From Novosphingobium sp. SG707 (GTDB taxonomy: Bacteria > Pseudomonadota > Alphaproteobacteria > Sphingomonadales > Sphingomonadaceae): DNA of 64,000 nt. The notes under the pieces were generated by a model, which did no database searches, was not told the DNA's origin, and worked only from the letters and a program-made list of their open reading frames with translations. A program made the position numbers and the translations under genes. Shown here piece after piece: positions 1,485 to 57,622 of the stretch; position 1 is the first letter of the stretch; each line of letters opens with the position of its first letter. Where the stretch lies: the NCBI RefSeq assembly GCF_012275515.1, contig NZ_JAAZQL010000013.1:1-64000 (forward strand), read 5' to 3'.

Positions 1485-1498
1485 TGCACAATGGTGCA
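1485..1498 (+). promoter_or_regulatory. TGCAC-N4-GTGCA operator upstream of PQQ dehydrogenase 1
   Basis: TGCACAATGGTGCA has perfect 5-bp inverted arms around AATG, 22 bases before the ATG at 1521. A TTGACC hexamer at 1467-1472 lies exactly 12 bases upstream, the same geometry as at 45648-45679. It is one of two perfect consensus members of the recurrent motif in this window, and is probably a repressor site over the transcription start. Confidence 0.6.
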
Positions 1499-1520
1499 GA
1501 AAATATCAGGAGAGAATGCC

Positions 1521-3590
1521 ATGAAACCGACGGGGCGACCGATGGGTTTGAAGCGCTCGGCTGCGTTGATGCTGGGCGCGGCCTGCGCGATCTCAACGCT
1601 GCAAGGGGTTGGCTGGGCTGGAAAAACCGCCCCTGCAGTTCGCACCGACTGGCACAGTTTCGGCGGCGACAGTGACGAACAGCATTACAGCCCGCTTGAC
1701 CAGATCAATCAGGGCAATGTCAAGCAACTGGGCCTTGCGTGGTCCTATGACGTGGACACATTCGACAGCTATACCCAGCCGATTGAAGTGGGCGGGGTGG
1801 TCTATTTTGCGGCGGGCCTGAGCGTTATTCATGCGCTGGATGCGCGCACGGGGCGGTTGCTTTGGAAATATGATCCCGATGTGGCCGGGCAGCCCGAGGC
1901 CAAGACCCGGATGCGCGCAGGCTGGGGCACGCGCGGCATTGCGTACAAGGATGGCATGGTGTTCACCGCCACGCGTGAAGGGCGACTGGTGGCGGTCGAT
2001 GCCAAGACGGGCAAGCTGCGCTGGCAGGTCAAGACGCTGGACGAGGCGGAGAACGGTTATATCACCGGGCCGCCATGGGTGGCGGGCGATGTGGTGGTTA
2101 CCGGCTTTGGCGGGGCCGATTACAGCCCGACGCGCGGCTATGTCACGGCCTATGACATCAAGACCGGCAAGAAGCGCTGGCGGTTTTACACCGTGCCGGG
2201 CGACCCGGCCAAGGGTTTTGAAAACAAGGCCATGGAGATGGCCGCCAAGACCTGGACCGGCGAATGGTGGAAGTTTGGCGGCGGCGGCACCGTGTGGCAC
2301 GCGATGGCCTATGACGCCAAATATGATCGCATTTATCTTGGCACCGGCAATGGCTGGCCGTGGAATGAAAAGATCCGCAGCCCCGGCGGCGGCGACAATC
2401 TGTATCTCGGCTCCATCGTGGCGCTTAACGCGAAAACCGGCGAATATGTCTGGCATTATCAGACCAACCCGGAAAACAGCTATGATTTCAACAATGCGAT
2501 GGACATTGAGCTCGCCGATGTGACCATCAACGGCAAATTGCGCCATGTGTTGATCCATGCGCCCAAGAATGGCTTTTTCTACGCGCTGGACCGGGAAACC
2601 GGCAAATTCATCTCGGCGGGCGAATTTGCCAAGCAGAATTGGGCCAAGAGCATCGACCCGGTGACGGGCAAGCCGGAGATCAACCCGGATTCGCTCTATC
2701 AGGATGGCAAGGCCTTTGTCATTTTCCCCTTCCCCAATGGCGCGCATGGCGTTCAGGCCATGTCTTACAGCCCCAAGACGGGCCTCAGCTATATTCCGGT
2801 GATGGATGGCGGGCGCGTGGTGGTCGATCCGCCCAATGTGAAGGACTGGACCTATCGTTCGGGTATGTTCGTCAACACCGGATTGGGCGCGCCGCCGCCG
2901 GGCGTGACGGCGCCTGCGGCAGTGTCGAAACTGGTGGCGTGGGATGTGGCGAAGAACCGCGCGGCGTGGTCGATCCCGCAGCCGGGCGTGTTCAACGGCG
3001 GCACGATGGCCACGGGCGGCAATCTGGTGTTTCAGGGGCTCAATGACGGCACGTTCAACGCCTATTCGGCGCAGGATGGGCGCAATCTGTGGTCCTATCC
3101 GATGCAGAACGGGATGCTCGCCGCGCCCATCTCCTATTCGATCGGCGGGCGGCAATATGTCACGATCATCACCGGTTTCCGCTCCAGCTATGCCAATACG
3201 CCCAACTGGGATTATCGCCAGCAACAGCGCCGGGTGCTGACCTTTGCGCTGGGGGCCACGCGCAAATTGCCCAAATTTACGCCGGTGGATGCGCCGATTA
3301 TGGATGATCCGGCTTTCACGGTGGATGTGGCCAAGGCCAAGGTGGGGTCAGGCATCTACAACACGTCCTGCGTGATCTGTCACGGCGTGGGCATGGCGGC
3401 GGGCGGGGCGGCGCCGGATCTGCGCAAGGCGCCGATCCCGATGGATGCCAATGCTTTCAACGCGGTGGTGCATGACGGGGCGCTGATGGCGCGCGGCATG
3501 CCCGGTTTCGGAAACCTCAGCGCCGATGAGATCGAGGGCCTGCGTCACTATATCCGCCAGCGTGCGCGAGAGACGATGGCTGCAAAATGA
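1521..3590 (+). CDS. PQQ-dependent alcohol dehydrogenase with C-terminal cytochrome c domain (quinohemoprotein) 1
   Basis: A 689-residue periplasmic type II quinohemoprotein alcohol dehydrogenase. It starts with a signal peptide (KRSAALMLGAACAISTLQG), followed by an eight-bladed propeller with W-motif repeats and a C-terminal heme c domain with C617-V-I-C620-H621. Calcium-site residues are recognisable in GTGNGWPWN and in the Asp of SYDFN. The residue two after that Asp is Asn, so the extra Asp of lanthanide-dependent XoxF types is absent. The vicinal Cys-Cys ring typical of the family is missing: that region reads RAGWGTRGIAY. It would oxidise an alcohol and pass electrons to cytochromes. 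ATG 1521 is preceded by AGGAGA. A paralogue lies at 15324-17381. No PQQ synthesis genes are visible. Confidence 0.93.
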   Translation: MKPTGRPMGLKRSAALMLGAACAISTLQGVGWAGKTAPAVRTDWHSFGGDSDEQHYSPLDQINQGNVKQLGLAWSYDVDTFDSYTQPIEVGGVVYFAAGLSVIHALDARTGRLLWKYDPDVAGQPEAKTRMRAGWGTRGIAYKDGMVFTATREGRLVAVDAKTGKLRWQVKTLDEAENGYITGPPWVAGDVVVTGFGGADYSPTRGYVTAYDIKTGKKRWRFYTVPGDPAKGFENKAMEMAAKTWTGEWWKFGGGGTVWHAMAYDAKYDRIYLGTGNGWPWNEKIRSPGGGDNLYLGSIVALNAKTGEYVWHYQTNPENSYDFNNAMDIELADVTINGKLRHVLIHAPKNGFFYALDRETGKFISAGEFAKQNWAKSIDPVTGKPEINPDSLYQDGKAFVIFPFPNGAHGVQAMSYSPKTGLSYIPVMDGGRVVVDPPNVKDWTYRSGMFVNTGLGAPPPGVTAPAAVSKLVAWDVAKNRAAWSIPQPGVFNGGTMATGGNLVFQGLNDGTFNAYSAQDGRNLWSYPMQNGMLAAPISYSIGGRQYVTIITGFRSSYANTPNWDYRQQQRRVLTFALGATRKLPKFTPVDAPIMDDPAFTVDVAKAKVGSGIYNTSCVICHGVGMAAGGAAPDLRKAPIPMDANAFNAVVHDGALMARGMPGFGNLSADEIEGLRHYIRQRARETMAAK

Positions 3591-3600
3591 ACGGTTCTGT

Positions 3601-3630: not shown

Positions 3631-3687
3631 ATGGTTGACCGTTTCTGATCTCATGTGCATGAAAGCCAGATGACAGGTGATCGTGAC

Positions 3688-4410
3688 ATGAACGCAACGA
3701 ATGAGGGTAATGAGCGCCCCCAGACCTATGCCAGCCCCGCGATCATTGAGCGGCGGCGGCGAATTCTGGAGGAAACGCGGCAGGTGATTGCCGAGCAGGG
3801 CATCACCGCGCTCAACATGAACGACATCGGGCGGCGCGCGGGCGTGGCCAAGCGCACGCTGTACAATGCGTTTCAGACGCGCGAGCGGATGATTGCGGCC
3901 GCCATTCAGGAATATTTCGAGGAATACGTCAGCCGCATCACCTTTACCCAGCCTTCGGGCACGCTGCAGCACAATCTGGAGCGCATGATCTCGGTGGTGC
4001 AGCGCAACCGGCGCATCCCCAATTACATCCGCGCGATCATGGCGCTCTATTTCAGCCCCGAGGTGGACGAGGACATCTGGCTGGCCATGCATTCGATCGC
4101 CACGCGGCAAAACCGGGCGTGGATCGAAAATCTGGCCGCAGGCAAGCAGTTGCAGGCATGGGTCGAGGTCGATACGCTGGTCGATGATCTGGTGCGGCTG
4201 GAATATGCGATGATCAACGATTGGGCGCGCGGGCGGATTCCCGATGATGCGATCATCGTACGGCTGATCACCTCCTATCTGACGCTGATCCTTGGCGCGG
4301 TGCGCGGGGCGGCGCGCAAGGAGGTCGAGGCGATGCTGAAGGATATTGCCGAGCGCGGATCCGAGGCATTGCCGATGCGCAAACGGGCCAAGGCGGAGGC
4401 GGCGGAGTAA
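3688..4410 (+). CDS. TetR/AcrR-family transcriptional regulator
   Basis: A 240-residue regulator with an N-terminal helix-turn-helix of TetR type (GITALNMNDIGRRAGVAKRTLYNAFQTRERM) and a C-terminal ligand-binding/dimer domain ending in a basic tail (MRKRAKAEAAE). In-frame ATGs exist at 3655, 3670 and 3688. I prefer 3688 because AGGTGATC precedes it and the longer forms add nothing conserved. It is co-directional with the PQQ gene before it and the crotonase after it. Its recognition helix (AKRTLYNAF) differs from those of the regulators at 23418 and 52670, so it may read a different operator. Confidence 0.85.
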   Translation: MNATNEGNERPQTYASPAIIERRRRILEETRQVIAEQGITALNMNDIGRRAGVAKRTLYNAFQTRERMIAAAIQEYFEEYVSRITFTQPSGTLQHNLERMISVVQRNRRIPNYIRAIMALYFSPEVDEDIWLAMHSIATRQNRAWIENLAAGKQLQAWVEVDTLVDDLVRLEYAMINDWARGRIPDDAIIVRLITSYLTLILGAVRGAARKEVEAMLKDIAERGSEALPMRKRAKAEAAE

Positions 4411-4423
4411 TTCCGGTTAAAAA

Positions 4424-5332: not shown

Positions 5333-5336
5333 TCCG

Positions 5337-10236: not shown

Positions 10237-11703
10237 ATGCGTTTCTGGCCCCTGATCGCCGCCGCGCCGCTGATTTTGGGCAATGCCGATCCGGTTGTGC
10301 GGACCGACCATGGCGCAGTGCGCGGGCAGGCCATTGAACAGGGCGCGGCGTTTCGGGGCATCCCCTTTGCCGCGCCCCCGGTCGGGCCTTTGCGCTGGCG
10401 TGAGGCGCGGCCTGCGCGGGGCTGGCGCGGCATCCGTGATGCGCGTTCCTTTGGCGCGGCCTGTATTCAGCCCGCGCGGGCCGAAGCCTTGCCCCAGAGC
10501 GAAGATTGCCTGACGCTCAATGTCGTCACGCCGGATCGCCATGCAAAGGGCCTGCCCGTGCTGGTGTCGATCCATGGCGGGGCCTTTGCCTTTGGTTCGG
10601 GGCGCTATATTGCCGATCATGACCTTTCGCCCATCGTGCGGCGCGGGGTGGTGCTGGTTTCGCCCAATTACCGGGTGGGCCGCATGGGCTTCTTTGCCCA
10701 TCGCGCGCTGAGGGCCGAGAATGGCCGCGCCACGGGCAATTTCTGGCTTTCCGATCAGATCGCGGCGCTGCGCTGGGTGCGGGATAATATCGCGCGCTTT
10801 GGCGGCGATCCGGCACGAGTGACGGTGCTGGGGTGCTCGGCGGGCGGGTCTTCGGTCAATGCGTTGATGGCGGCGCCTGCGGCCAGGGGCTTGTTCGCAC
10901 GGGCCTCGGTCCATTCGGGCGGGGGCTTTTTCAACGCCAGTCGGCCCATGGCTCTGGCCGAGGCGCAGGGATTGGCCTTCGCGCAAAGGGCAGGGGCCAA
11001 GACGCTGGCGCAATTGCGTGCACTCTCCCCGGCGCAGGTGCTGGCCGCCGATCCCGGCCCGCCCGACTATGGCGCGATGGAGGATGGGCGGCTGGTGCCG
11101 ATGGGCGTCTCGCGGATCTTTGCGGCGGGGCGTCAGGCGCCTGTGCCGCTGATCGTGGGATCGACCAGCAATGAGGCCAGTGTGTTCGGCCTGATGGGCT
11201 TTGACGCGAAGGTCTTGCGTGAACGTTTCGGAATTGATGTGGCGGCTTTGCGCCCGATGTACGAACGCAATGGGCCTCTGGCTGATGCGGAATTGCTGCG
11301 CCGGATTCAAACCGATTTCATCTTCACCAGCGCCGCGCAGGGCATGGCCGGATTGGCCGCCCGCGCCGCGCCGACATGGTCCTATCACTTCGCCTTTGTG
11401 CCGCAGGCCGAGCGCGCCACCAGCCCCGGCGCGCCGCATTGCGCGGATATGCCCTATCTCTTCGGCCTGAAATCCGCACTCGATCCAGAGGAAGCCAGAC
11501 TATCTCAGGCGATGCAGGATTACTGGTACAATTTCATCGCCACCGGCAATCCCGGCGCTTCGTGGCCCGCGATCCGCCCCGGCCATCCCGCGCCGATGGT
11601 CTTCAACACCGCCTCGCGGATCGAACCTGATTTCCAGCGCGAAAGGCTCGATTATTGGTGGAGCCGCTGGATGCGTGAGAGCGGCTCCACCACAGCGCCT
11701 TAG
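10237..11703 (+). CDS. Type B carboxylesterase, exported
   Basis: A 488-residue carboxylesterase/lipase type B. It has a short signal peptide (MRFWPLIAAAPLILGNA), an oxyanion segment SIHGGAFAFGSG, and the nucleophile Ser201 in VLGCSAGGSS. The family domain runs through nearly the whole length to EPDFQRERLDYWW. It hydrolyses carboxylic esters, and in this setting may open an ester or lactone before the alcohol is oxidised by the periplasmic PQQ enzymes (inference). It is the last gene of the rightward operon. Its stop codon overlaps by four bases the stop of the convergent DUF35 gene. Confidence 0.88.
   Translation: MRFWPLIAAAPLILGNADPVVRTDHGAVRGQAIEQGAAFRGIPFAAPPVGPLRWREARPARGWRGIRDARSFGAACIQPARAEALPQSEDCLTLNVVTPDRHAKGLPVLVSIHGGAFAFGSGRYIADHDLSPIVRRGVVLVSPNYRVGRMGFFAHRALRAENGRATGNFWLSDQIAALRWVRDNIARFGGDPARVTVLGCSAGGSSVNALMAAPAARGLFARASVHSGGGFFNASRPMALAEAQGLAFAQRAGAKTLAQLRALSPAQVLAADPGPPDYGAMEDGRLVPMGVSRIFAAGRQAPVPLIVGSTSNEASVFGLMGFDAKVLRERFGIDVAALRPMYERNGPLADAELLRRIQTDFIFTSAAQGMAGLAARAAPTWSYHFAFVPQAERATSPGAPHCADMPYLFGLKSALDPEEARLSQAMQDYWYNFIATGNPGASWPAIRPGHPAPMVFNTASRIEPDFQRERLDYWWSRWMRESGSTTAP
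11657..11691. terminator. Bidirectional hairpin between convergent operons
   Basis: GGTGGAGCCGCT at 11657-11668 pairs perfectly with 11680-11691 (12 bp, 11-base loop). It lies inside the last codons of the esterase, just before the two overlapping stop codons at 11700-11703, where a terminator serving both operons would be expected. Confidence 0.6.
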
Positions 11704-12113
11704 GCCGGAGCGAAACCGGCGATCTTGTGGTCGCCCACCTCGACCGGGCGAAACTTCAGCCGCATCCCGCAGGCGGGCGTCACGCCATCATCATCGACCA
11801 GCACGCCCGCGATCCGCACGCCCGGCGCATCGTCCGGCTCGAACAGGATGACGGTATAGGGCACCTCATCCTTGTGATCGCCCGGCAGCAGGCTGCGCAT
11901 CACGGTGGTGAACGTGTAGGCATGGCCCAGCGGCGAGACCGCCCGCCATTCCAGCCGCGCATCGGGCCGCCCCGGCACCACCTCGGGCGGATACCAGTGA
12001 AACTCGCCCGTTTCCGCGTCCACCGTCACGCGCAATTCGCCCGCGTCCAGCCCATCGTAAAAGCCCTGAAACGAGGGGTCTTCCAGATGGACGGGATAGT
12101 TTGGAATGCCCAT
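11700..12113 (-). CDS. DUF35 OB-fold protein, partner of the adjacent thiolase-fold protein
   Basis: A 137-residue protein with the OB-fold part of DUF35 (YTFTTVMRSLLPG, TVILFEPDDAPGVRIAGVLVD, GMRLKFRPVEVGDHKIAGF). The cysteines of the usual N-terminal zinc ribbon are missing: the region after EFHWYPPEVVPG has none. DUF35 proteins bind and activate thiolase-fold partners; in actinobacterial steroid side-chain breakdown a DUF35 domain pairs with the aldolase Ltp2. It is the last gene of the nine-gene operon, three bases after the thiolase-fold gene, which supports a complex of the two. Confidence 0.82.
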   Translation of the reverse strand: MGIPNYPVHLEDPSFQGFYDGLDAGELRVTVDAETGEFHWYPPEVVPGRPDARLEWRAVSPLGHAYTFTTVMRSLLPGDHKDEVPYTVILFEPDDAPGVRIAGVLVDDDGVTPACGMRLKFRPVEVGDHKIAGFAPA

Positions 12114-12116
12114 GTT

Positions 12117-13268
12117 TTACATCCTTGCCAGAATGGTGGTGGAATGGTTGTTGCCGCCAAGGCCCGCAATCGCGCAGAGCTTTGCCTCCGGCACCTGCCG
12201 CGCGCCTTCACCCCCGCGCAATTGGCGCACCGCCTCGATCAGCAGGTTGATGCCCGGCACATAGCCGCCCGACATATGCCCGCCGCTGGTGTTGATCGGC
12301 ATCTTGCCCCCCGGCATGGCATGGCCCGCGGCATAGAAACGCGGCGCCTCGCCCACATCGCACAGGCCCAGCATTTCGGTCTGGACCAGAGCGGAGATGG
12401 TGAAGCCATCATAGACCTGCGCCAGATCGAGATCGGCAGGGCTGATCCCCGCCATCGCATAGGCCATGGCCGCCGATTCCCGCCCCGGAAATTCAAACGT
12501 GCAGGGCTTCTGGCTGAAGAGCACGCCATGGGGATAATTGTTATAGCCCAGCCCCAGCCCCTGCACCGCCACAACGGGATGGGCCAGATCGCGGGCATAT
12601 TCCACCGAGGACACCACATAGGCCCCGCCGCCATCGGTGGTCAGGCAACAATCGGCCACGCGCAGGGGCGTCGAGATCATCGGGCTGGCGCGATAGGCGG
12701 CAAGGTCCATCGGATCGCGCCGCTGGGCCGATGGGGTGATCGCCGCCCATGCGCGATAGGTCATGGGCAGGGCGGCCTGTTCTTCCTCGGTCATGCCATA
12801 TTCGTGAGCATAGCGGTTGGCCATGCTGGCGAAATAGGTCGGCTGGCCAAAGAAACCGGCGGGCATTTCCAGCCCCGCCTTTTGCGGTTCGCGCGCGTGG
12901 AAAGCGTAAACGCCCCCCGGCTTGGTCGAGCGGATCGCGTAAGGCACCAGCACATGCTTGCACAGGCCTGCCTCGATGGCGAGTTGGGCGAGGCGCAGCG
13001 CATCGCCCGAGGTTGCCGTGCCGCCCGCGCTGTCGGTGACGGCGGAAAAGCGCTTTTGCCCCGCGCCGATGGCATGGGCGATTTCCTCGGAAGGGTGGCC
13101 CGCATATTTGTTGATGATATAGCCGTCGATGTCGGTGGGCTTCAGCCCTGCATCCGCAATGGCGGCAAGGCTGGCGCGGGTCATCATCGCCATGACATGT
13201 TCCTCGCCCTTGCGCAGGAACGGGGTTTCGCCAACGCCGGTGATGGCGATTTTGCCGGATTGCATCAT
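12117..13268 (-). CDS. Thiolase-fold protein of SCP-x/Ltp2 type, probable retro-aldolase
   Basis: A 383-residue lipid-transfer/thiolase-like protein. At the position of the nucleophilic Cys the sequence is VTDSAGGTATSG (Ser80), and where thiolases have the HPxG histidine it reads GGHMSGGYVPG (Tyr336). The family segment QVYDGFT is present. A Cys-less thiolase fold with an active-site Tyr and a DUF35 partner matches the pattern described for the steroid aldolase Ltp2, so carbon-carbon cleavage by retro-aldol is more likely than thiolysis (inference). ATG 13268 overlaps the TGA of the FadB-type gene, and AGGAAAGGGG precedes it. A second ATG follows immediately. Confidence 0.83.
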   Translation of the reverse strand: MMQSGKIAITGVGETPFLRKGEEHVMAMMTRASLAAIADAGLKPTDIDGYIINKYAGHPSEEIAHAIGAGQKRFSAVTDSAGGTATSGDALRLAQLAIEAGLCKHVLVPYAIRSTKPGGVYAFHAREPQKAGLEMPAGFFGQPTYFASMANRYAHEYGMTEEEQAALPMTYRAWAAITPSAQRRDPMDLAAYRASPMISTPLRVADCCLTTDGGGAYVVSSVEYARDLAHPVVAVQGLGLGYNNYPHGVLFSQKPCTFEFPGRESAAMAYAMAGISPADLDLAQVYDGFTISALVQTEMLGLCDVGEAPRFYAAGHAMPGGKMPINTSGGHMSGGYVPGINLLIEAVRQLRGGEGARQVPEAKLCAIAGLGGNNHSTTILARM

Positions 13269-15337
13269 GCGTTGAACCCCTTTCCTGCGGCCACCAGCCG
13301 TTCGATCAAGGGCGAAGGCGCAAAGCCTGCCCCATGCGCGGCCTCCAGCGCGCGCAGCTTTTCGAGCACATTGGGCAGCCCTTGCAGATCGGCCCAGAAC
13401 ATCGGCCCGCCGCGATATTTGGGCCAGCCATAGCCGGTGATCCACACGATATCGACATCGCTGGCCCGCGCGGCGATGGCCTCGTCCAGGATCCTGGCGC
13501 CTTCATTGACCATGGCGAAGAGGATGCGGTCGTGGATTTCCTCTTCGGAAATCTCGCGCCTTGTGATGCCCTGCTTGGCCGCAAAGCCCTCGATCACCTC
13601 CATGGCGATGGGCGAAGGCGTGGCATTGCGCTTTTCGTCATAATCGTAATAGCCGCCGCGCGTTTTCTGCCCATGGCGGCCCATTTCGTTCAGGATCTCG
13701 CGCACATTGGCCGAGGCGGTCGTCGCCCGGTTCCAGCCCACGTCGAGGCCCACCAGATCGCGCATCTGGAAATGGCCCATCGCAAAGCCGAAATCATACA
13801 GCACCTTGTCGATGGCCCATGGCGTCGCGCCCTCCAGCGCCAGCGCGTCGGCCTGCACATTGCGCGCGGCTAGAATGCGATTGCCGACAAAGCCAAAGCC
13901 ATTGCCGCAAAGCACGCCGATCTTGCCGATGGTTTTGGCCAGCTTCATCGCTGTCGCATAGACAGCGGGCAGCGTGTGTTTGGTGCGCACCACCTCCAGC
14001 AATTTCATGACATTGGCGGGCGAGAAGAAATGCAGGCCCAGCACATATTCGGGCCGCCCCGTCACACCGGCAATGTCGTCAATATCCAGATAGGACGTGT
14101 TGGTGGCCAGCATCGCGCCCGGCTTGGCAATCGCATCCAGACGGCGGAAAATCTCCTGCTTCACATCAAGCTGTTCAAACACCGCCTCGATCACCAGATC
14201 GACCTCCGCGAGATCCTCCAGCGCCAGAGTCCCGTGGATCAGGCCCATGCGCGTCTCGACATCCTCCGCCTTCATCTTGCCCTTGGCGGCGGTCGTCTCG
14301 TAATTCTTGCGGATTATGCCAAGGCCCCGGTCCAGCGCCTCCTGCGTGGTTTCGACCAAAGTGACGGGGATGCCGACATTGGCGAAATTCATTGCAATGC
14401 CGCCGCCCATCGTGCCCGCCCCGATCACGCCCACGCGCGCGACGGGCAGGGTGGACGTATCGGCGGGCACATCGACCTTGGCGGCCTGACGCTCGGCAAA
14501 GAAAACGTGGCGCTGGGCAGCGGACTGGCTGTCGGCCATCAACTGGTCAAACAGCGAGCGTTCGTATTTCAGCGCCTCGTCAAAGGGCAGATCCGAAAGG
14601 GTCGCCTCGATGCAGCGGATGTTATACTCGGGCGCCAGAAAACCGCGGAACTTCTTGGCATTGGCGCGGCGGAAATCGTCAAAGATCGCCGGATTGGCGC
14701 GGGCCTCCTCCAGCTTGTCCGCCTTGTCGCGCACCTTCACCAAGGGGCGATTTTCATCCAGCACCCGGTTCGCAAAAGCCAGCGCATCGGAGCGCAGATT
14801 GCCTTCGCTGGCCAGCTCATCAACCAGCCCCATCGCCAGCGCCGCCTTGGCCGAAACCGGCTCGCCGCTCGTCACCATCTCCAGCGCCTTGGCCACGCCC
14901 ACCACGCGGGGCAGGCGCTGTGTGCCGCCGGCACCCGGCAGCAGGCCCAGCTTAACCTCCGGCAATCCGCATTTGGCCGAGGGCACCGCGATCCGGTAAT
15001 GCGCCACCAGCGCCAGTTCCAGCCCGCCGCCCAGCGCCGTGCCATGGATCGCGGCGATTACCGGCTTGGGGCTGTTCTCCAGCAGTTTTTGCAGATCGCG
15101 CAGCGAGGGTTCCCACTGCGGCTTGCCAAATTCGGAAATGTCGGCCCCGGCAAAGAAGGTGCGTCCTTCGCAGATCACCAGCACCGCGCCCACGGCATCA
15201 TCGGCAATCGCGGCCTCAAACGCATGGGCCACGCCCTGACGCACCGCATTGGACAGCGCATTGACCGGCGGCGAGTTGACCGTGATGATTCCAATCCGCC
15301 CTTCGACCGTCAAAGTCGTGACATCATTGACCTTCAT
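13265..15337 (-). CDS. Bifunctional enoyl-CoA hydratase / 3-hydroxyacyl-CoA dehydrogenase
   Basis: A 690-residue fusion. Residues about 1-190 are a crotonase with both catalytic glutamates in place ([10 protein letters not shown] and [16 protein letters not shown]). From about 295 comes an NAD-binding 3-hydroxyacyl-CoA dehydrogenase ([21 protein letters not shown]), with its C-terminal domains to the end. The length and order match the shorter multifunctional type rather than the 715-residue FadB. It hydrates a 2-enoyl-CoA and oxidises the product to 3-ketoacyl-CoA. The start overlaps the end of PQQ dehydrogenase 2 by 14 bases, and the end overlaps the thiolase-fold gene start, so all are translated from one message. 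Confidence 0.93.
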
Positions 15338-18955: not shown

Positions 18956-20272
18956 TCAGCCATGGGGCCCCTCACGCGCGGCAATGGCACCCGCGAGATA
19001 GCGCAGCGCCAGTCGGAAAGCGGCCCATGCCAGCACCGTGCCGCCAATCACGACCACCGCCAGCGAGGAACCAAGGGCTGCTTCGGAGCCGAACACATAT
19101 TGCGTGAGCGCGGCGACAATCGCCGGACCCGCGCCCAGCCCGAGCAGGGTGAAAACAAAGAGGAAGAAGGCCAGCAACCGCGCGCGCACCTGCGCCGGGG
19201 CGATCATCGCCATCACCGAGGAGACATAGACCATAAAGGGCACGGTGATGAATTGCGCCACGCAATAACAGGCGAGGAACACCCAGACATTGGCCGCAAA
19301 GAACATATAGGCGATGACCGGAAACAGGCCCAGGATCAGCCAGCCATAGAAGCGCAGATGCGCATCCTTCATGCCGCGTGCGAACAATTTGTCCACGATC
19401 CAGCCGTTCAGCACGAGGCTGACCGCCGAGATGATGTTCATGATCGACAGGGCGGGGCCATATTGCACCGGCTTCCACCCGAAATGGCGCTCGATATAGG
19501 TGGGCACCCAATTGGTCATCGAATAGCCGCAGATCGCCAACGCCGAGGTGCCGATCAACATCAGCCCCAGTAGGCGCCAGTTGCCGCGCATAAAGTCCAT
19601 CGTGACGGCGCGGGCATTGGCCTGGTCGTTTTCCCCGGCCAGACGGCGGCGCGGCGGATCGGGAAAGGTGAATACCAGCAGGCCCAGCAAGAGTCCGGGC
19701 AGGCCCACCATCATCATCACCAATTGCCACGGCTGGCTGGCCGCGTGAAAGGGCAGGGTCATGCCCTTATGCGCGGTGGCCCATGCAATCGCGATGCCGC
19801 CAAGGCCAAAGGCCGTGGCCGAACCGACCTTGCCCGCCATCTGAAAGGTCGATGTGGCCCGCGTCAGCAGATGGGGCGGGAAAGCGTCCGCAATCAGCGA
19901 ATAGGCGGCGGGCAGCAAAGCCGCCTCGCCCGCGCCCACCAGAATGCGCGCGGCCAGCAATCCCTCATAGCTTTGCGCATAGCCGCAGGCGATGGTGGCG
20001 CAGGCCCAGACCATCACCCCGCCGCAAATGATCCACCGCCGCGAATAACGATCCGAGGCCCAGCCCAAGGGCAGGCCAAACACCGCATAGAAAATCGCAA
20101 AGGAGGTGGAGGTCACCATGCTGACCTGAACATCGGTGAGCAGCAGGTGCTTCTTGATCGGGCTGACCAGCATGGACAGGATCAGCCGGTCCACCCAGCT
20201 TTGCACATAGAGCAGGAACAGCACCGCGACCATCCACCAACTGCGGCTCAGGTTTTGAGGTTGATTTTCCAT
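18956..20272 (-). CDS. Major facilitator superfamily transporter
   Basis: A 438-residue inner-membrane transporter with about 12 hydrophobic segments. The MFS loop motif between helices 2 and 3 is seen as GLPLGWASDRYSRRW, and VGAGEAALLPAAYSLIADAFP marks helices 4-5. It resembles the MFS protein at 45719-47044 (similar SWVDRLILSMLVSPIKKHL / SLADRYLMALMVEPIKQGL opening), so the two probably take up related organic acids. It lies between acyl-CoA dehydrogenase and acyl-CoA synthetase genes in the nine-gene operon, so import of the acid to be activated is likely (inference). Confidence 0.9.
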   Translation of the reverse strand: MENQPQNLSRSWWMVAVLFLLYVQSWVDRLILSMLVSPIKKHLLLTDVQVSMVTSTSFAIFYAVFGLPLGWASDRYSRRWIICGGVMVWACATIACGYAQSYEGLLAARILVGAGEAALLPAAYSLIADAFPPHLLTRATSTFQMAGKVGSATAFGLGGIAIAWATAHKGMTLPFHAASQPWQLVMMMVGLPGLLLGLLVFTFPDPPRRRLAGENDQANARAVTMDFMRGNWRLLGLMLIGTSALAICGYSMTNWVPTYIERHFGWKPVQYGPALSIMNIISAVSLVLNGWIVDKLFARGMKDAHLRFYGWLILGLFPVIAYMFFAANVWVFLACYCVAQFITVPFMVYVSSVMAMIAPAQVRARLLAFFLFVFTLLGLGAGPAIVAALTQYVFGSEAALGSSLAVVVIGGTVLAWAAFRLALRYLAGAIAAREGPHG

Positions 20273-20288: not shown

Positions 20289-21518
20289 TTATCGGACAGG
20301 AAGGGCGGACAGTTGGGCTATTTTCAATTTGCCCAATTGGGCCAGATGCACCTCGTCCGGGCCGTCGGTCAGGCGGACATAGCGCGCGTTGATAAAGGCG
20401 CTGGCCACCGGAAAGTCCTTGGACAGGCCGATGCCGCCATGGACCTGTATCGCGCGGTCGGTCACGGTTTGCGCCATGCGCGGGGCAACGATCTTGATCG
20501 CGGCGATCAGATCCTTGGCCGCCTTGTTGCCATAGCGGTCCATCGCATCGGCGGCCTTGAGCGTAAGCAGCCGCGCCTGTTCGACCTCGCAGAAGGAGAG
20601 GGCGACTTCCTGACGGATGCTGCCCTGATCGGCCAGCTTGCGGCCAAAGGCGACGCGTTCATTCACGCGGCGTGCCATATATTCCAGCGCGCGCTGGGCC
20701 TGTCCGATCACGCGCATGCAATGGTGGATGCGGCCCGGCCCGAGGCGGCCCTGCGCGATCTCGAACCCGCGCCCCTCGCCCAGCACCATATTGGCGGCCG
20801 GAACGCGGACATTGGTAAAGCTGACCTCGGCATGGCCGGTGGGCGAATGATAGGTGCCCAGCACGTCCAGAGGGCGCACGATCTCGATGCCGGGCGTGTC
20901 GCGCGGTACAAGGATCATTGAATGCTGCTGATGCTTGCTGCGGCTCTCGTCAGGCGTGCGGCCCAGCACGATGAACAGCTTGGTGTTGGGATCGCAGGCG
21001 CTGGAGATCCACCACTTGCGACCATTGATGACATATTCATCGCCATCGCGGACAATCGAGGTTTCGATATTGGTGGCGTCCGAGGATGCCACCGCCGGTT
21101 CGGTCATCACATAGGAAGAGCGGATCTCGCCCGCCATCAGGGGCGTCAGCCATTGTTCCTGCTGCTCGGGCGTGCCGTAGCGGGCGAGCACTTCCATATT
21201 GCCCGAATCCGGCGCGGCGCAGTTGAAATATTCCGAAGCGCCGATCACGCGCCCCATGATCTCGGCCAGCGGGGCATATTCCAGATTGGTCAGGCCCGGG
21301 CTGAAGGCGCCATATTCATGGGGCAGGAACAGGTTCCACAAGCCCGCATCCCTGGCCTTGGCCTTGATGCCCTCGGTGCCGTGCCAGCGTTTCCACGCAT
21401 TGGCCGGATCGGCGTGAAAGCGGTCGCGCTCCTTTTCGATGGGGTAGACATAGGCGTCCATGAAGGTGGTCAATTGCGCGGACAGCGCCTTCACCTTGTC
21501 GGAATATTCAAAATCCAT
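20289..21518 (-). CDS. Acyl-CoA dehydrogenase, ACAD10/11- or LvaC-like
   Basis: A 409-residue flavoprotein of the acyl-CoA dehydrogenase fold. It shows [20 protein letters not shown] (FAD/substrate loop), the arginine-rich [17 protein letters not shown], and the C-terminal base in [15 protein letters not shown], a form typical of the ACAD10/11 branch. In that branch, and in bacterial LvaC, the enzyme works with an aminoglycoside-phosphotransferase-like kinase to convert 4-hydroxyacyl-CoA through a phosphorylated intermediate into an enoyl-CoA. Such a kinase homologue is two genes upstream at 22300. Plain alpha-beta dehydrogenation remains possible. Confidence 0.88.
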
Positions 21519-21547
21519 CGGGGTGAACCCTTTGCGAAGTGAGGATT

Positions 21548-22282
21548 TTAGAGGGTAAGGCCGCCATCGACGATGATGGTCTGGCCGCAGATGTAGCCGG
21601 CCAGCGGCGAGGCGAGGAACAGGGCGACGCCCGCCATTTCCTCGACCGTGCCAAACCGGCGCAGGGGGATCTTGGCCAAGGCGCGCTCGCGGCGCTCGTC
21701 ATTGTCCATCGTCACCTTGGTCATCTTGGTGTCGACCAGACTGGGCGCGATGCCGTTGACGCGGATGCCGTCGCCCGCCCATGCCTGGGCCAGCGTGCGC
21801 ACCAGATTGACCGCGCCCGCCTTGGATGCGGCATAGGCCGGATTGCCCATCGTCGCGCGAAAGGCGCCGATGGAGCTGACGACGATGACGCTGCCCTTGG
21901 CGGCGGAGAGTTCGGCGTGGAAGCGCTGCGAAATATGCATCACGCTGCCCAGATTGACCGCCATCACCTTGTCCCAGCCTTCGGGGGTGAATTCCTGACG
22001 GCGGTAAAGCACCGCGCCCTGCGAATGGATCAGGATATCGATGGTATCAAAGGGCGCGGGGGCGGCGGCAATCGCGGCCGGATCGCTGACATCGACCTGC
22101 GTATAGCCGAGGCCCGACAGGTCCGATCCTTCCTCGCCCGCATAATCGGTCGCGGCGGCACGCGTGCCCCAGACATGGACATGGGCGCCCGCGTCAAACA
22201 GCGCGCGGGCAATGCCATTGCCGATCCCGCTGGAGCCGCCAATGACCAGCGCGTTTTTGCCGGTGAAATCGAGTGGGTTCAT
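21548..22282 (-). CDS. Short-chain dehydrogenase/reductase
   Basis: A 244-residue classical SDR. The cofactor motif is [11 protein letters not shown] (12-22), the catalytic Ser is in VVSSIG, and the Tyr-Lys pair is in YAASKAG. The usual NNAG is changed to HSQGA. The C-terminal [12 protein letters not shown] is typical. The residues after the second beta strand (WGTRAAATD) include an Arg, which suggests NADP but does not prove it. It would interconvert a hydroxyl and a ketone on the substrate. It lies between the kinase-like and the ACAD11-like genes, so it may make or use the 4-hydroxy group handled by those proteins. Confidence 0.9.
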
Positions 22283-22299
22283 CGGGCGGAAAACTCCCT

Positions 22300-23331: not shown

Positions 23332-23382
23332 CCTCAACTTATGCGATGTGCAACCATCGTCTAATGCAAATGGATAATGCAC

Positions 23383-23424
23383 TTGACGAAGGCGCTTGGC
23401 AATGAGATTTTGCACTCATGGTCA
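23383..23424 (+). promoter_or_regulatory. Promoter and operator of the F420 operon regulator, overlapping its start codon
   Basis: TTGACG (23383-23388), a 17-base spacer and GATTTT (23406-23411) form a promoter. The operator-like TGCACTCATGGTCA (23411-23424) begins at the -10 box and contains ATG 23418. The transcript would begin at or next to the ATG, so the message may be leaderless. Between 23332 and 23382 are further TGCA half-sites, which may serve the divergent nine-gene operon. Confidence 0.5.
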
Positions 23425-24134
23425 GACTTCAGAAACCACGGGCAGAGGAAAACGGGACGGGCGGCGCTGAGCAGATCAAGCGCATCGCGCTGCGTCTGTT
23501 TGCCGAACGCGGGGTCGATGGCGTGACGGTGCGCGAGATTGCGGCTGCGGCAGGACAGAAGAATCACGGCGCGGTGGGCTATCATTTCGGGTCCAAGGAA
23601 ACGCTGGTGCGCGCGATCATTAAGGATGGCGCGGTGGAGCTGGACCGGCTGCGCAACAGCGCGCTCGATGCGGTGGAGGCGGACGGCGGCCCGCGCCATC
23701 TGCGCGATGTGGTCGATGTGCTGATCGGTTCGGTCACGGCGCTGTCGGATGATGATTATGTGCGCTTCATCACGCTGTTCGGCATGACGCATCGCGATCT
23801 GATGATCGAGGCGATCGAGCCGGAATGGAACCATGCCTATGGCCGGTGTCTGGCGCATCTGCGCCGCCTGATGCCGGTGATGAGCGCGCAGATGCGCAAC
23901 CAGCGTTTCGTTTTCATGGGCGCGCTGCTCAGCGCGGTGCTCTCGGCGCGGGCGCGGGCCTTGGCCGATCCCACGCGGACCCATCCGATGTGGGCGGGCG
24001 ACATCGGCCTTGAACATTTCGCGCAGGTGATGACCGCGATGCTGGCGGCCCCGGTCGATTTGCCGGATAGTGAATTGCAAATGGCTGATTCGAAAAGGCT
24101 TGCCGATCATGGGCCGCTTGGCCCGGTCGGATAG
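23418..24134 (+). CDS. TetR-family regulator heading the F420 operon
   Basis: A 238-residue regulator. The N-terminal helix-turn-helix is VDGVTVREIAAAAGQKNHGAVGYHFGSKETLVRAII; the remainder is an alpha-helical effector domain. Its recognition region (QKNHGAVGYHF) closely resembles that of the regulator at 52670 (SRNNNAVQYHF), and both genes have a TGCAC-N4-GGTCA site at their 5' ends. It is therefore a candidate for the protein that binds the window-wide palindrome. It is divergent from the nine-gene catabolic operon and 17 bases upstream of cofGH, so it probably controls both sides. No ribosome-binding site is seen. Confidence 0.87.
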   Translation: MVRLQKPRAEENGTGGAEQIKRIALRLFAERGVDGVTVREIAAAAGQKNHGAVGYHFGSKETLVRAIIKDGAVELDRLRNSALDAVEADGGPRHLRDVVDVLIGSVTALSDDDYVRFITLFGMTHRDLMIEAIEPEWNHAYGRCLAHLRRLMPVMSAQMRNQRFVFMGALLSAVLSARARALADPTRTHPMWAGDIGLEHFAQVMTAMLAAPVDLPDSELQMADSKRLADHGPLGPVG

Positions 24135-27191: not shown

Positions 27192-27197
27192 GATCCC

Positions 27198-28891: not shown

Positions 28892-28895
28892 GGCG

Positions 28896-29480: not shown

Positions 29481-29509
29481 TTGGCTTGTGTGATCCGGGC
29501 TGGAATGCC

Positions 29510-29531
29510 TATAATTCTGCATCACAGTATA
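29510..29531 (+). promoter_or_regulatory. Promoter with operator-like site for the thiolase gene
   Basis: A consensus -10 TATAAT (29510-29515) is followed two bases later by TGCATCACAGTATA (29518-29531), a degenerate member of the TGCAC-N4-GTGCA family with three arm mismatches. TTGTGT at 29486-29491 could be a -35 with an 18-base spacer. GAGAGGATGAGGC precedes ATG 29555. Confidence 0.5.
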
Positions 29532-30727: not shown

Positions 30728-30736
30728 GAAGGGGAG

Positions 30737-30953: not shown

Positions 30954-30969
30954 ACCTAAAACCCTTTCT

Positions 30970-35691: not shown

Positions 35692-35744
35692 CAGGATTTG
35701 CGATGAAAACACTGGAATTCCGGCTTACTTATGGGCAAGATTCC

Positions 35745-35758
35745 TGTACTCTTGTGCA
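35745..35758 (+). promoter_or_regulatory. Operator upstream of the DMT transporter
   Basis: TGTACTCTTGTGCA matches the TGCAC-N4-GTGCA form with one arm change, 22 bases before ATG 35781 and directly after AAGATTCC (possible -10). The region 35527-35780 contains this and the divergent site, and no gene. Confidence 0.5.
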
Positions 35759-35780
35759 AATATCATAAAGGGATGGGATC

Positions 35781-47124: not shown

Positions 47125-47192
47125 TGCATAGGGATGCAAATTTGCATTGACTGGCAAAATTCTCCGGCCTACAAATTCTGCAACATAGGGCA
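47125..47192 (+). promoter_or_regulatory. Promoter with two operators before the TonB receptor
   Basis: TTGACT (47147-47152), a 17-base spacer and TACAAA (47170-47175) form a good promoter. TGCAACATAGGGCA (47179-47192) starts three bases after the -10 and covers the expected start. A second site with perfect arms, TGCATAGGGATGCA (47125-47138), overlaps the palindrome ATGCAAATTTGCAT (47134-47147) just upstream of the -35. ATG 47237 follows GGGAGG. Confidence 0.6.
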
Positions 47193-52596: not shown

Positions 52597-52669
52597 ATAA
52601 TAAAACGTGGCAGGCGGTTTGCGCCCCGCCGCGCCCTATGGCATGGCGGGATCGGAAAAGAGAGGAACC

Positions 52670-53338
52670 ATGGCCGACCCAGCGCCCCTGTTCAATGCGG
52701 CCAAACGCCACCTGCTGCTGACCGCCGAGCGGCTGTTTGCCCAGCGCGGATGCGAGGGCGTGTCGCTGCGCGAGATTGCGCAAGCGGCCGGATCGCGCAA
52801 CAACAATGCCGTGCAATATCACTTCGGATCGCGTGAGGGGCTGATGGCCGCGATCCATGTCTGCCGCGTGGGCGATATGGAGGCGATGCGCGAGGCGATG
52901 CTGGCGCGGGCCGGGGCGGAAGGGCTGCTGGGCGACTCGCTGACCTTGCTGCAAATCCTGTGCCTGCCGCATCTGGCGCTGAAAGATGAGGATGGCAGCC
53001 ATCCCTATGCCGGGTTTCTGGTGCATTATGTGATGCGCCACTGGCGCGCGCCCGATGCCGATTCCGCGGTGGGGGCGGGCGGCGTGGCCCCGGCGCAAAG
53101 GCGGGTGGTCGAGCTGATCGCGGCGACTTTGGGCGATCTGTCCCCCGCCTTCATCCGTTCGCGCAGTATGTTGGCGCTGATGCTTTTCCTCAACGCTTTG
53201 CTGCGCCACGATCATGTCGATCGGCAATTGGGCGGCCCGGCCCTGCTGGAGGACGCCTTGCGCAGCGCCCATGCCGCCCTGTGTCAGAGCGCGGGCGGAC
53301 AGGGGTCTTTGCTCTTTGCCGATATGCTGGCGCTCTAA
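52670..53338 (+). CDS. TetR-family regulator
   Basis: A 222-residue regulator. The helix-turn-helix is CEGVSLREIAQAAGSRNNNAVQYHFGSREGLMAAI, closely related in the recognition region to the F420-operon regulator at 23418. The C-terminal domain is all-helical (RSRSMLALMLFLNALLRHDHVDRQL). ATG 52670 follows AGAGGA. It is divergent from the aldehyde dehydrogenase with a TGCAC-N4-GGTCA operator between, so autoregulation and control of that gene are likely. It is the second candidate for the protein reading the recurrent palindrome. Its stop codon overlaps the sulfatase stop by four bases. Confidence 0.87.
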   Translation: MADPAPLFNAAKRHLLLTAERLFAQRGCEGVSLREIAQAAGSRNNNAVQYHFGSREGLMAAIHVCRVGDMEAMREAMLARAGAEGLLGDSLTLLQILCLPHLALKDEDGSHPYAGFLVHYVMRHWRAPDADSAVGAGGVAPAQRRVVELIAATLGDLSPAFIRSRSMLALMLFLNALLRHDHVDRQLGGPALLEDALRSAHAALCQSAGGQGSLLFADMLAL

Positions 53339-55635: not shown

Positions 55636-55697
55636 GATCTTCTCCCGAACCGGGGTCTGATGCGCCGGTTTCGGGGGGAGATTATGCCTGTCAATTT

Positions 55698-55731: not shown

Positions 55732-55780
55732 AGAGAGGTTCCATCGGCTCCATCCCCTCAACCCCGCCGGGCAGATTGTA

Positions 55781-56104
55781 TCATATCAGTTGGGTCTTGG
55801 GCAGTTGCACGACCATCCCATCCATCGCCTCGGTCACGGGGATCTGGCACGAGAGGCGGCTGCCGGATTGCGGTTCGGCGGCAAATTCCATCATCGCCTC
55901 CTCCTCCTCGCTGGCGGGGTTCAGGTGGGCGATCCAGTCATGGGGGATCACCACCTGGCAGGTGGCGCAACTGCAAGCCCCGCCGCAATCGGCCAGAATG
56001 CCGCGTAGGCCATTCTTGACCGCGCCCTCCATCAGGCTCCAGCCCGAGGGCACATCGACCACCTGATCGGTGCCATCGGCAAGGCGATAGTTTATCTTCG
56101 CCAT
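55781..56104 (-). CDS. 2Fe-2S ferredoxin (adrenodoxin/putidaredoxin type)
   Basis: A 107-residue ferredoxin with the C-x5-C-x2-C pattern in DCGGACSCATCQVVIP and the fourth Cys in SRLSCQIPVTEAMDGMVV. The acidic segment ASEEEEAMMEF is typical of P450 partners. It carries single electrons from a flavoprotein reductase to a P450. Its ATG overlaps the stop of the small ferredoxin gene, and both follow the P450 gene, so the three form one operon. No reductase gene is next to them; one must be supplied from elsewhere. Confidence 0.93.
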   Translation of the reverse strand: MAKINYRLADGTDQVVDVPSGWSLMEGAVKNGLRGILADCGGACSCATCQVVIPHDWIAHLNPASEEEEAMMEFAAEPQSGSRLSCQIPVTEAMDGMVVQLPKTQLI

Positions 56105-56304
56105 CAATCCTCTCCGATGCTCAGCGCCCGTTCCGGGCAGGCGCGGGTGGCGCGGCCTGCCAGCGCTTCCTGCCCCGGCGGCACAAGGATGTCGCCGGGC
56201 AGGACATAGCCTTCGTCATCCAGTTCGAACAATTCGGGCGCCAGCGCCCAGCAGCGCGCGTGACCCGCACATTTCTCGCGGTCTACCTTGATAATCATCG
56301 CCAT
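56104..56304 (-). CDS. Small P450-associated ferredoxin (3Fe-4S/4Fe-4S type)
   Basis: A 66-residue protein with EKCAGHARCWALAPELFELDDEGYV and, near the end, RACPERALSI. The cluster ligands are C-AGHAR-C and the later CP. The His in place of the middle Cys is typical of 3Fe-4S ferredoxins encoded beside P450s. Its ATG shares a base with the P450 stop codon, so the two are translationally coupled. ATG 56298 is an alternative start. It is unusual that this ferredoxin and a 2Fe-2S ferredoxin are both encoded with a single P450. Confidence 0.93.
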   Translation of the reverse strand: MAMIIKVDREKCAGHARCWALAPELFELDDEGYVLPGDILVPPGQEALAGRATRACPERALSIGED

Positions 56305-57524
56305 CAACTCCAGTCGAGCACCAGATTTTCCACGCCAAAGACAAAGCCGCCGAAGGTGACGGGGGCCGTGCCTTCCTTGATGCGGAAGGGCGGGATGCGG
56401 GCGAACCATTCATTGAGCGCGATGATGATCTCGCGCCGCGCCAGATGCGAGCCGAGGCAGCGGTGCGGGCCATAGGAGAAGGCGGTGTGGCGATTGTCCT
56501 CGCGGTTGAAGTCGATCGTGTTGGGATCGGGAAATTCGGCCGGATCGCGGCTGGAGGCCATCGAGGGGCAGGAGACGAGATCACCCTTTTTGATCGGGCA
56601 TCCGCCCAGATCCATGTCGCGCGTGGCGGTGCGGATCGGGGTGACGCTGGGGAAGGCGCGCAGCATTTCTTCGACAGCGCTGGGCATGATCGCGGGATTG
56701 TCGCGCAATTCCTGTTGCCGGTCGGGGTTGCGGGCCAGAAAATAGAGGTCGAGGCCGATGGCAGTGGCCACCGTATCCAGCCCGCCGATGAAGAGCAGGA
56801 CGGCAATCGAGCGGATTTCCTGATCGGTCAGGGGGCGGCCTTCGACCTGCGCCTGCACCAGAAAGGTCATGAAATCCTCGGCTGGTTCTTCCTTGCGCTG
56901 GGCGATCATGCCTTCAAGGAAATTCAGCACCTTATGCGCGGCGGCTGTGCGTTCGGCGGGTCCCATATGCAGCAATTCATTGGCCCAGCCGACAAATTCC
57001 ATCAGCCGGTCATCGGGAATGCCAAGGAAGGCGAGGAACACACTGACCGCCAGCGGGAAGGCGAATTCGGTCATCACCTCGGCCGATGTGCCGCGCGCCT
57101 TGAGGCCCTCGATCAGTTCGACCGCCTTGGCCGTGACGAAGGGCTCCAGAGCCGCCACCCGCTTTGGCGAGAGCAGCGGGTTGAGCATCGAGCGATATTT
57201 GCCATGTTCGGGCGGGTCGAGTTCGAGGGGGATCACCGGCCAGTCCTCGCCGATGGCCGAGGAGAAGATGCGGCGAAAGGAGGAATAGCTCGCGCCGTCC
57301 TGAAGCACATTGCGCTGTTCTTCCGCCGTGGTGACGATCCATGCGCCTTGCCCGTCGCGGGTGGTTTCGGGCGAATAGAACACCGATGGCCCATCGAGCA
57401 ATTTGGCCACCGCGGCAAAGGGGTCGCCAAAGGGAGTGGGGCGCATTTCGGGCGATTTGTACAGGTTGAAGGCCCCCACGCAGTGCGCGGGGACGTGATC
57501 GGGAACCTTAGGCTGACTCGCCAT
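56304..57524 (-). CDS. Cytochrome P450
   Basis: A 406-residue soluble bacterial P450. The heme ligand is C356 in FSYGPHRCLGSHLARREI, the I-helix oxygen-activation site is LLFIGGLDTVATAI, and the ExxR region lies before RTATRDMDLGG. SMLNPLLSPKRVAALEP also fits. It uses electrons from a ferredoxin to hydroxylate an organic substrate. GGAGGATT precedes ATG 57524. The promoter reads on the minus strand as TTGTAC-N17-TATCTA (57610-57582), with the recurrent operator just downstream and a separate repeat in the spacer. It is likely an entry hydroxylation in the pathway. Confidence 0.95.
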   Translation of the reverse strand: MASQPKVPDHVPAHCVGAFNLYKSPEMRPTPFGDPFAAVAKLLDGPSVFYSPETTRDGQGAWIVTTAEEQRNVLQDGASYSSFRRIFSSAIGEDWPVIPLELDPPEHGKYRSMLNPLLSPKRVAALEPFVTAKAVELIEGLKARGTSAEVMTEFAFPLAVSVFLAFLGIPDDRLMEFVGWANELLHMGPAERTAAAHKVLNFLEGMIAQRKEEPAEDFMTFLVQAQVEGRPLTDQEIRSIAVLLFIGGLDTVATAIGLDLYFLARNPDRQQELRDNPAIMPSAVEEMLRAFPSVTPIRTATRDMDLGGCPIKKGDLVSCPSMASSRDPAEFPDPNTIDFNREDNRHTAFSYGPHRCLGSHLARREIIIALNEWFARIPPFRIKEGTAPVTFGGFVFGVENLVLDWS

Positions 57525-57568
57525 GGCAATCCTCCAATGTTCTGTTCTTTGGACAGGCTATAGAATCC

Positions 57569-57622
57569 TGCACCTGAGTGCTAGATACAACAGATGTTTT
57601 ATCTGTACAACGTCTGTTTTAT
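57569..57622. promoter_or_regulatory. P450/TetR control region with two kinds of operator
   Basis: TGCACCTGAGTGCT (57569-57582) is a near-perfect copy of the recurrent palindrome, abutting the minus-strand -10. A direct repeat, ACAACAGATGTTTTAT (57587-57602) and ACAACGTCTGTTTTAT (57607-57622), 13 of 16 identical and 20 bases apart, covers the spacer and -35 of the P450 promoter. It also contains the inverted ACAGAT/ATCTGT. The direct repeat is probably the site of the local TetR protein. Confidence 0.6.

Follow-up and report, generated by a model that had tools for sequence, protein, structure and literature searches.

A 22-bp palindrome at the promoters of a catabolic gene cluster in Novosphingobium sp. 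SG707 and its proposed TetR-family repressor

The first 64,000 nucleotides of contig NZ_JAAZQL010000013.1 of Novosphingobium sp. SG707 (assembly GCF_012275515.1; contig C13, positions 1-64000, of a 5.64-Mb genome in 41 contigs), here called the window, carry a cluster of genes for uptake and catabolism together with an operon for the synthesis of coenzyme F420. Transcription units throughout this cluster share a 22-bp palindrome, AWWyTGCAcNNNNgTGCArWWT. We propose that this palindrome is the operator of a single TetR-family repressor, TetR_A, which is encoded within the cluster (3655-4410, + strand) and would be released from its sites by an inducer. We put the probability of this reading at about 0.82. 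It is suggested by the distribution of the sites in the window, their transfer to homologous clusters of other sphingomonads, their positions relative to promoter elements and their co-occurrence with TetR_A.

The palindrome in the window and in other genomes

A first-pass annotation of the window had listed 14 sites resembling TGCAC-N4-GTGCA, plus a weaker one at 55698, as a 14-bp operator. Related sequence is indeed found at all 15 coordinates, and the perfect arms described at 1485 and 45666 and the symmetry of 47125 (TGCAT/ATGCA) are there as well. The sites are real, but the 14-bp core is too short a description of them: the flanking base at position -3 is A or T in every one of the 30 half-sites, and that at position -2 in 29 of them, giving an operator of about 22 bp. 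We trained a symmetric 22-bp weight matrix solely on the 17 strong sites of the window and used 18 bits as the main cut-off. Two of these sites, with cores at 29464 and 47143, are additional to the earlier list, and the site at 55698 proved to be strong rather than weak. The putative operators are given below with their matrix scores; the 22-bp element starts 4 nt before the coordinate of its 14-bp core (for example, 1481 and 1485, respectively).

1481..1502, before PQQ dehydrogenase 1 (PQQ1) and the downstream TetR_A gene; class C (classes are defined below), TTGACC 12 nt upstream; 25.0 bits
3642..3663, weak, half-conserved and doubtful site directly before the TetR_A gene; 12.9 bits
4420..4441, before enoyl-CoA hydratase/flavin reductase; class B, upstream of the -35 box; 25.6 bits
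5978..5999, before double CoA-transferase/LLM/SnoaL/esterase; TTG 7 nt past the core; 18.3 bits (leave-one-out, 16.0); also present in G011 and N. rosa
23407..23428, between the APH operon and TetR_B/F420 operon; 20.3 bits; retained in G011, yet overlapping the TetR_B start codon
29460..29481, upstream of the thiolase -35 box; 20.3 bits
29514..29535, just past the thiolase -10 box; 23.8 bits
35642..35663, between the CoA-transferase operon and the EamA transporter; 21.5 bits; counterpart in G011
35741..35762, second site before the EamA transporter; 21.3 bits
44591..44612, at the start of the acyl-CoA dehydrogenase/thiolase operon (operon on - strand); 25.2 bits
44767..44788, before enoyl-CoA hydratase 44807; 23.8 bits
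45662..45683, before the MFS transporter; class C, TTGACC 12 nt upstream; 22.4 bits
47121..47142, upstream of the TonB receptor -35 box; 22.2 bits
47139..47160, over the TonB receptor -35 box; 20.7 bits
47175..47196, just past the TonB receptor -10 box; 23.9 bits
52579..52600, between aldehyde dehydrogenase and TetR_C; 20.7 bits
55694..55715, at the sulfatase gene start; 23.7 bits (leave-one-out, 22.9)
57565..57586, between P450 and TetR_D; 18.3 bits (leave-one-out, 13.4, the lowest of all)

At 18 bits or more, the 17 positions in the window compare with one in an own-genome background of 17 stretches of 20 kb (340 kb). When each site was left out of the matrix in turn, 15 of the 17 were outscored by at most 15 of the approximately 64,000 window positions (5982 by 16 and 57569 by 18). 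The palindrome is far from being as frequent inside genes as upstream of them in the window: 16 of the 17 strong sites are non-coding or no more than 60 nt from the start of a called gene, compared with 1.4 expected, by our own gene calls with one open reading frame (ORF) replaced. An operator had been claimed at nearly every unit, which holds for most of them, although HpcH (50198) is preceded by no site of at least 15 bits and the glycosidase genes beyond 58 kb contain none. There is also a borderline site at 20330 (17.1 bits), located inside an acyl-CoA dehydrogenase gene and 58 bp upstream of the MFS gene at 18956-20272, where it possibly marks an internal promoter.

Across the whole genome, the palindrome with no more than two mismatches occurs at 17 places. 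Nine of these fall within the window, which makes up 1.1% of the genome, a concentration that is partly circular because the pattern derives from the window's own sites. A tenth, at C5:345611, is the best outside the window (26.6 bits); it lies near the end of contig C5 and is flanked by an alcohol dehydrogenase and a thiolase-hydratase unit. In N. rosa, such a unit carries a 27.2-bit site, and a distance of 1.7 kb separates its end from the nitronate monooxygenase and PQQ1 genes that follow, so that C5:345611 can very probably be counted with the cluster of the window, from which an assembly gap divides it.

The matrix was then applied to other genomes. A search of 397 genomes of the family for TetR_A gave 31 with matches at 1e-25, our own included. 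The closest named carriers, Novosphingobium sp. SCN 66-18, Novosphingobium sp. SG751A and N. sediminicola DSM 27057, are too close to serve as a test of conservation, their TetR_A being 98-100% identical; the protein of N. rosa NBRC 15208 is 89% identical. In 21 TetR_A cluster loci of other genomes (390,579 bp), we found 46 sites of at least 18 bits, and the column counts of these 46 sites yield an identical consensus. There were none in 11 loci around TetR_B, a second TetR gene of the window, from eight genomes without a TetR_A match (217,203 bp), none when the positive loci were resampled five times with a first-order Markov model, and none in seven flanking stretches (140,000 bp), with the caveat that loci were assigned to cluster or flank by gene content after the site results had been seen (for example, L116 in and L117-L119 out). 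G140 (TetR_A 38% identical, best site 17.6 bits) was excluded from these counts.

The sites are retained even where the homologous cluster has been rearranged. G133 has a thoroughly different gene order and protein identities of 47-86%, yet shows seven sites of 22-25.6 bits near gene starts, and N. rosa has four sites. Of four loci with a FadB homologue within such clusters, three contain sites, the exception being a stretch of 7 kb from G206; ten further FadB loci, outside such clusters, lack any site of 15 bits. Together, matrix transfer and conservation lend good support to the earlier proposal of one regulon spanning the receptor, transporters, PQQ enzymes, P450, CoA enzymes and F420 genes.

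The candidate regulator

Four TetR genes are found in the window:

3655-4410, + strand, TetR_A (TetR_N), the proposed regulator
23418-24134, + strand, TetR_B, probably the local regulator of the APH-SDR-ACAD unit
52607-53338, TetR_C
57594-58247, TetR_D

The first-pass annotation pointed to the TetR proteins at 23418 and 52670 as the regulators, which is probably wrong. Stretches of 7-100 kb were examined in 16 other genomes whose TetR_A orthologue is at least 45% identical, and 14 of them contain sites of at least 18 bits (G011, G133, G143, G201, G212, G362, G320, G206, G156, G084, G189, G308, G296 and G237). All 14 have TetR_A, through which most of them were found, and the 23418 protein is missing from eight of them. 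At a cut-off of E<=1e-20, 7 of the 17 TetR_A genomes have TetR_B and 8 a TetR_C-like protein, our own included in both counts; neither protein was matched in G084, G189 and G237, which have sites. Among the loci compared, TetR_D was seen only in G212. When small loci of equal size (2.0-3.8 kb) around TetR_A homologues are compared, an 18-bit site is present in 12 of the 16 nearest (47-100% identical, own included) and in none of 14 distant ones (33-45%).

The helix-turn-helix of TetR_A matches TetR_N (PF00440) with 46.3 bits (cut-off 24; 3.6e-12). Its recognition helix, VAKRTLYNAFQTRE, is kept in 15 of 15 homologues of at least 50% identity, with one substitution within it in N. rosa, and is changed in more distant ones. 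The operator at 1485 lies in the unit that encodes TetR_A (PQQ1-TetR_A, co-transcription being assumed from a 64-bp gap), an arrangement shared by G011, G212 and N. rosa. On these comparisons, TetR_A is most likely the regulator of the site set. A structure model of TetR_A built from three close sequences was too poor to use (mean pLDDT 40.6), and a plasmid search returned six records, 25.9-38.5% identical.

TetR_B most likely has an operator of its own, because a different palindrome, TTATCCAnnTGGATAA, precedes its gene in genomes without a TetR_A match. This palindrome adjoins the TetR_B -35 box and is perfect in 5 of the 12 TetR_B loci examined. Among eight TetR_B genomes without a TetR_A match it is perfect in five, matches at 11/14 and 10/14 in two, and at 7/14 in G111; in four TetR_A genomes, including that of the window, it is degenerate (10-12/14). 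The 340 kb of background contain 48 matches of at least 10/14, so only the better ones carry weight. In the window, the proposed TetR_B operator is the following:

23362..23377, separate palindrome TAATGCAAATGGATAA, 12/14 to TTATCCAnnTGGATAA

Promoter registers, proposed mechanism and rival readings

For analysis of positions, 71 sites were oriented to the next gene, which gave 89 oriented sides for -35/-10 counts; TTGAC was counted on 160 oriented sides. According to the first-pass annotation, a site begins 0-3 bases past the -10 box wherever a promoter is readable. This is the case at 29518, after TATAAT (29510-29515), and 47179, after TACAAA (47170-47175), whereas other sites lie before the -35 box, on both sides of a promoter or 12 nt past TTGAC. 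We therefore distinguish three classes. In class A, the site is just past the -10 box, and TTGAC is found 20-23 nt upstream of the core on 11 of 160 sides. In class B, the site precedes the -35 box, and TTG follows the core by 6-9 nt on 34 of 89 sides (about 5 expected). In class C, TTGAC lies upstream of the core at a distance of exactly 12 nt (10 of 160 sides) or 13 nt (2 of 160); at other distances outside 20-23 nt, it occurs on 0-2 of 160 sides. The observation that TTGACC stands exactly 12 nt upstream of 1485 and 45666 thus extends across loci: 7 of the 12 class C cases precede PQQ1 genes, and PQQ1 genes with a site and TTGAC 12-13 nt upstream occur in G011, G133, G212, G084, G156 and N. 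rosa. There is a further TTG peak 3 nt past the core, overlapping the operator flank, on 20 of 89 sides, with TTGAC there four times.

By a combined -35/-10 rule, 25 of the 89 sides are class A, 17 class B and 3 both. Against these 45 sides, shifted anchors gave 19 (-20), 18 (-30), 16 (+25), 11 (+30), 8 (+35) and 3 (+40). This control is not clean because neighbouring promoter elements enter the shifted frames, and we rely on the offset counts instead. Two promoters of normal appearance, those of the thiolase (operators at 29464 and 29518) and the TonB receptor (47125, 47143 and 47179), are each enclosed by operators at a spacing of 54 bp, which fits a repressor that excludes RNA polymerase. 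Both were read by eye:

29486..29515, + strand, thiolase promoter TTGTGT-18-TATAAT, between two operators
47147..47175, + strand, TonB receptor promoter TTGACT-17-TACAAA

From the observed sites, their promoter positions, their conservation and the co-occurrence of TetR_A, we infer the following scheme of binding, repression and release by an inducer. In the absence of the substrate, TetR_A dimers would occupy the 22-bp sites and keep RNA polymerase from the promoters of the receptor, the transporters, the PQQ dehydrogenases, the P450 and the CoA enzymes, while F420 synthesis would be controlled by TetR_A directly or via the TetR_B unit. The predicted operators would act from just downstream of the -10 box, just upstream of the -35 box or both and, at PQQ1-type promoters, from 12 nt past the TTGAC box. 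Negative feedback would follow from the operator carried by the PQQ1-TetR_A unit itself. An inducer, probably the pathway substrate or an acyl-CoA intermediate, would release TetR_A.

Several results weigh against this scheme. Within the window, the 14-bp core with at most two mismatches is not enriched (35 found compared with 42.2 expected from shuffles), so the core alone could be due to chance, and whole-genome counts with three mismatches fail to tell TetR_A genomes apart from the rest, the background swamping them. Separate sets of five resamplings gave six hits at 16 bits, none at 20 and one at 22. Among the own-genome stretches examined, two places of 19.6 bits lie outside the cluster, one of them AT-rich and located in L011, the other at C2:378072, with a LigB gene on one side and a LysR gene on the other. 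The immediate promoter of TetR_A holds only the 12.9-bit site, and 44 of the 89 oriented sides belong to neither class A nor class B by the combined rule. G266 encodes a TetR_A of 58% identity and shows no site of 15 bits in 60 kb; in G372 (65%), there is only a sub-threshold core, TGCACtcgcATGCA, with one poor flank, before TetR_A. Moreover, the co-occurrence is partly built in because TetR_A was the query by which most of the comparison clusters were located, and for the converse test no homologous cluster lacking TetR_A was found; the one candidate, G114 (70% FadB, no TetR_A match), was rejected since its 60 kb shares FadB, one thiolase and weaker matches with the window, and not the cluster.

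The lack of core enrichment is what would be expected if the sites were chance or AT-rich promoter sequence picked by eye, a reading that we consider practically negligible in view of the transfer of the matrix at 18 bits or more with 0-1 hits in controls and resamplings, the leave-one-out ranks and the conservation in rearranged clusters. It is improbable, too, that TetR_B, TetR_C or both bind the palindrome, such that the TetR proteins of the cluster share one operator. Self-regulation would account for the sites at or over the starts of the TetR_B, TetR_C and TetR_D genes, and the 23411 site is retained in G011. Yet these three proteins are only 16-19% identical to TetR_A in alignment, TetR_B and TetR_C are unmatched in several site-bearing genomes, and the 217,203 bp of TetR_B loci from eight genomes without a TetR_A match contain no operator of at least 16 bits, TTATCCAnnTGGATAA being perfect in five of the eight and partial in two. 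We give equally little credence to a regulator encoded elsewhere in the genome, for example one of the IclR family. The 44-bp footprint of the Sphingobium IclR repressor PheR includes TGCAACGCGATGCA, which is core-like (11.3 bits with the core, 7.9 bits with the 22-bp matrix; PMC13273656). No IclR domain was detected in the 51 called window genes scanned with Pfam or in six further L103 ORFs (two enzymes and four without a family), and a site accompanies TetR_A even where little of the cluster is seen, as in G296 (TetR_A, P450 and hydrolase) and, below threshold, in G372 (TetR_A and F420 oxidoreductase).

A somewhat less remote alternative, which we still consider unlikely, is that TetR_A has a dual role, repressing from sites over or downstream of the promoter and activating from class B sites about 50 bp upstream of the transcription start. 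The TTG excess 6-9 nt past the core is compatible with this; so are the sites before the enoyl-CoA hydratase homologous to 4529, five of ten being class B by rule, one class A and four neither, with TTG 7-8 nt past the core by eye in most of the remainder. However, TetR proteins are mostly repressors, the class B sites at the thiolase and TonB promoters have partner sites beyond the -10 box, as fits occlusion, and a 22-bp operator at the class B position nearly touches the -35 box. In its broadest form, which we offer as speculation at the same low level of confidence, the system would be a sphingomonad catabolic regulon with one TetR protein and one 22-bp operator in three registers, repressing at or past the -10 box, possibly activating from about 50 bp upstream, and tying F420 synthesis to the breakdown of a hydrophobic substrate.

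Cluster content and known systems

Among the genes of the cluster are those for a TonB receptor, transporters, two PQQ alcohol dehydrogenases that carry cytochrome domains, a P450 accompanied by ferredoxin genes, an aldehyde dehydrogenase, a CoA ligase, CoA-transferases, several acyl-CoA dehydrogenases and a FadB-like protein, together with two gene sets:

20289-23415, APH kinase-SDR-acyl-CoA dehydrogenase (APH-SDR-ACAD) set
24152-29480, F420 operon: fused CofGH/FbiC, F420 oxidoreductase, CofE, CofD and CofC

These gene families suggest, with low confidence, that the cluster degrades a hydrophobic, perhaps isoprenoid or sterol-like, carboxylate. The APH-SDR-ACAD set resembles the ACAD10/ACAD11 system for 4-hydroxyacyl-CoA (PMC11342911) and adjoins TetR_B in seven of the eight TetR_B-only genomes; TetR_B is probably its local regulator. 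Homologues of all five F420 operon genes are found in G143 and G201, and of some in G133, G084 and G212. Sites lie before or beside F420 genes in the window (23411), G143, G084, G212 and G237, and no 18-bit site lies directly before fbiC in G133 or G201.

Several other features of the window were recorded. At 11700-13445, the gene for a thiolase-like protein adjoins one for a small protein with an OB fold (ChsH2 C-terminal type, E 1.1e-5, which misses the Pfam cut-off); the two may be a side-chain aldolase pair. A short ORF (56104-56409, - strand) between the P450 and a 2Fe-2S ferredoxin has a CAGHARC motif, which we take to be ferredoxin-like; its product is probably a P450 partner. Finally, two short stretches near the start of the window have second copies further on, one of 23 bp (near 235) in inverted orientation near 30,930 and one of 18 bp (near 308) in direct orientation near 30,818; regions 1-410 and 30728-30969 are perhaps a repeat element that broke the assembly.

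With this analysis, some 56 kb of genes known by family alone are drawn together in a single predicted regulon whose regulator and operator can be named, and an F420 synthesis operon is placed inside a proteobacterial catabolic regulon. The choice of which of the four TetR proteins to purify first is corrected to TetR_A, the pathway substrate could be found as its inducer, and the system might supply a biosensor part.

Our search of the literature, in which subscription journals were covered in part so that absence is unproven, found no description of the TGCAC operator or of TetR_A among the entries listed. Among sequences in the PDB, the best match of TetR_A is Mce3R (9b7y; E 3.2e-10, residues 32-118), which differs in being a double TetR protein that acts on a non-palindromic sequence (PMC11667970). 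PheR resembles the proposed system as a sphingomonad catabolic repressor with TGCAACGCGATGCA in its footprint, but it belongs to the IclR family and the flanks of its site misfit the 22-bp matrix (PMC13273656). EdcR of Caenibius tardaugens is, likewise, a TetR repressor of a sphingomonad catabolic cluster, with the operator TnnCnnTACnAnTnGTAnnGnnA over the -10 box of several promoters including its own; that cluster, however, is for estrogen (PMC8700777). The two operators differ, and orthology of TetR_A to EdcR was rejected on this comparison of operators. FadP, PsrA and LiuQ of Proteobacteria are TetR regulators of fatty-acid or branched-chain catabolism whose regulons, like the one proposed here, were inferred by comparative genomics (PMC5343134).

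In architecture, the proposed system parallels that of KstR of mycobacteria, a TetR repressor that acts through a 14-bp palindrome, TnnAACnnGTTnnA, often located between divergent genes, across a large lipid-degradation regulon that includes its own promoter (PMC1995591). Common to the KstR system and the one proposed here is the layout of a single TetR repressor and one short palindrome at many promoters, the regulator's own among them. They differ in operator and phylum, and binding and derepression are established for KstR and predicted here (PMC1995591). Orthology was rejected, given TnnAACnnGTTnnA as opposed to the 22-bp consensus of the window, and the match between TetR_A and KstR is confined to about residues 26-117 (E 2e-5). 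The best reading is that the cluster is under the control of a KstR-like local repressor.

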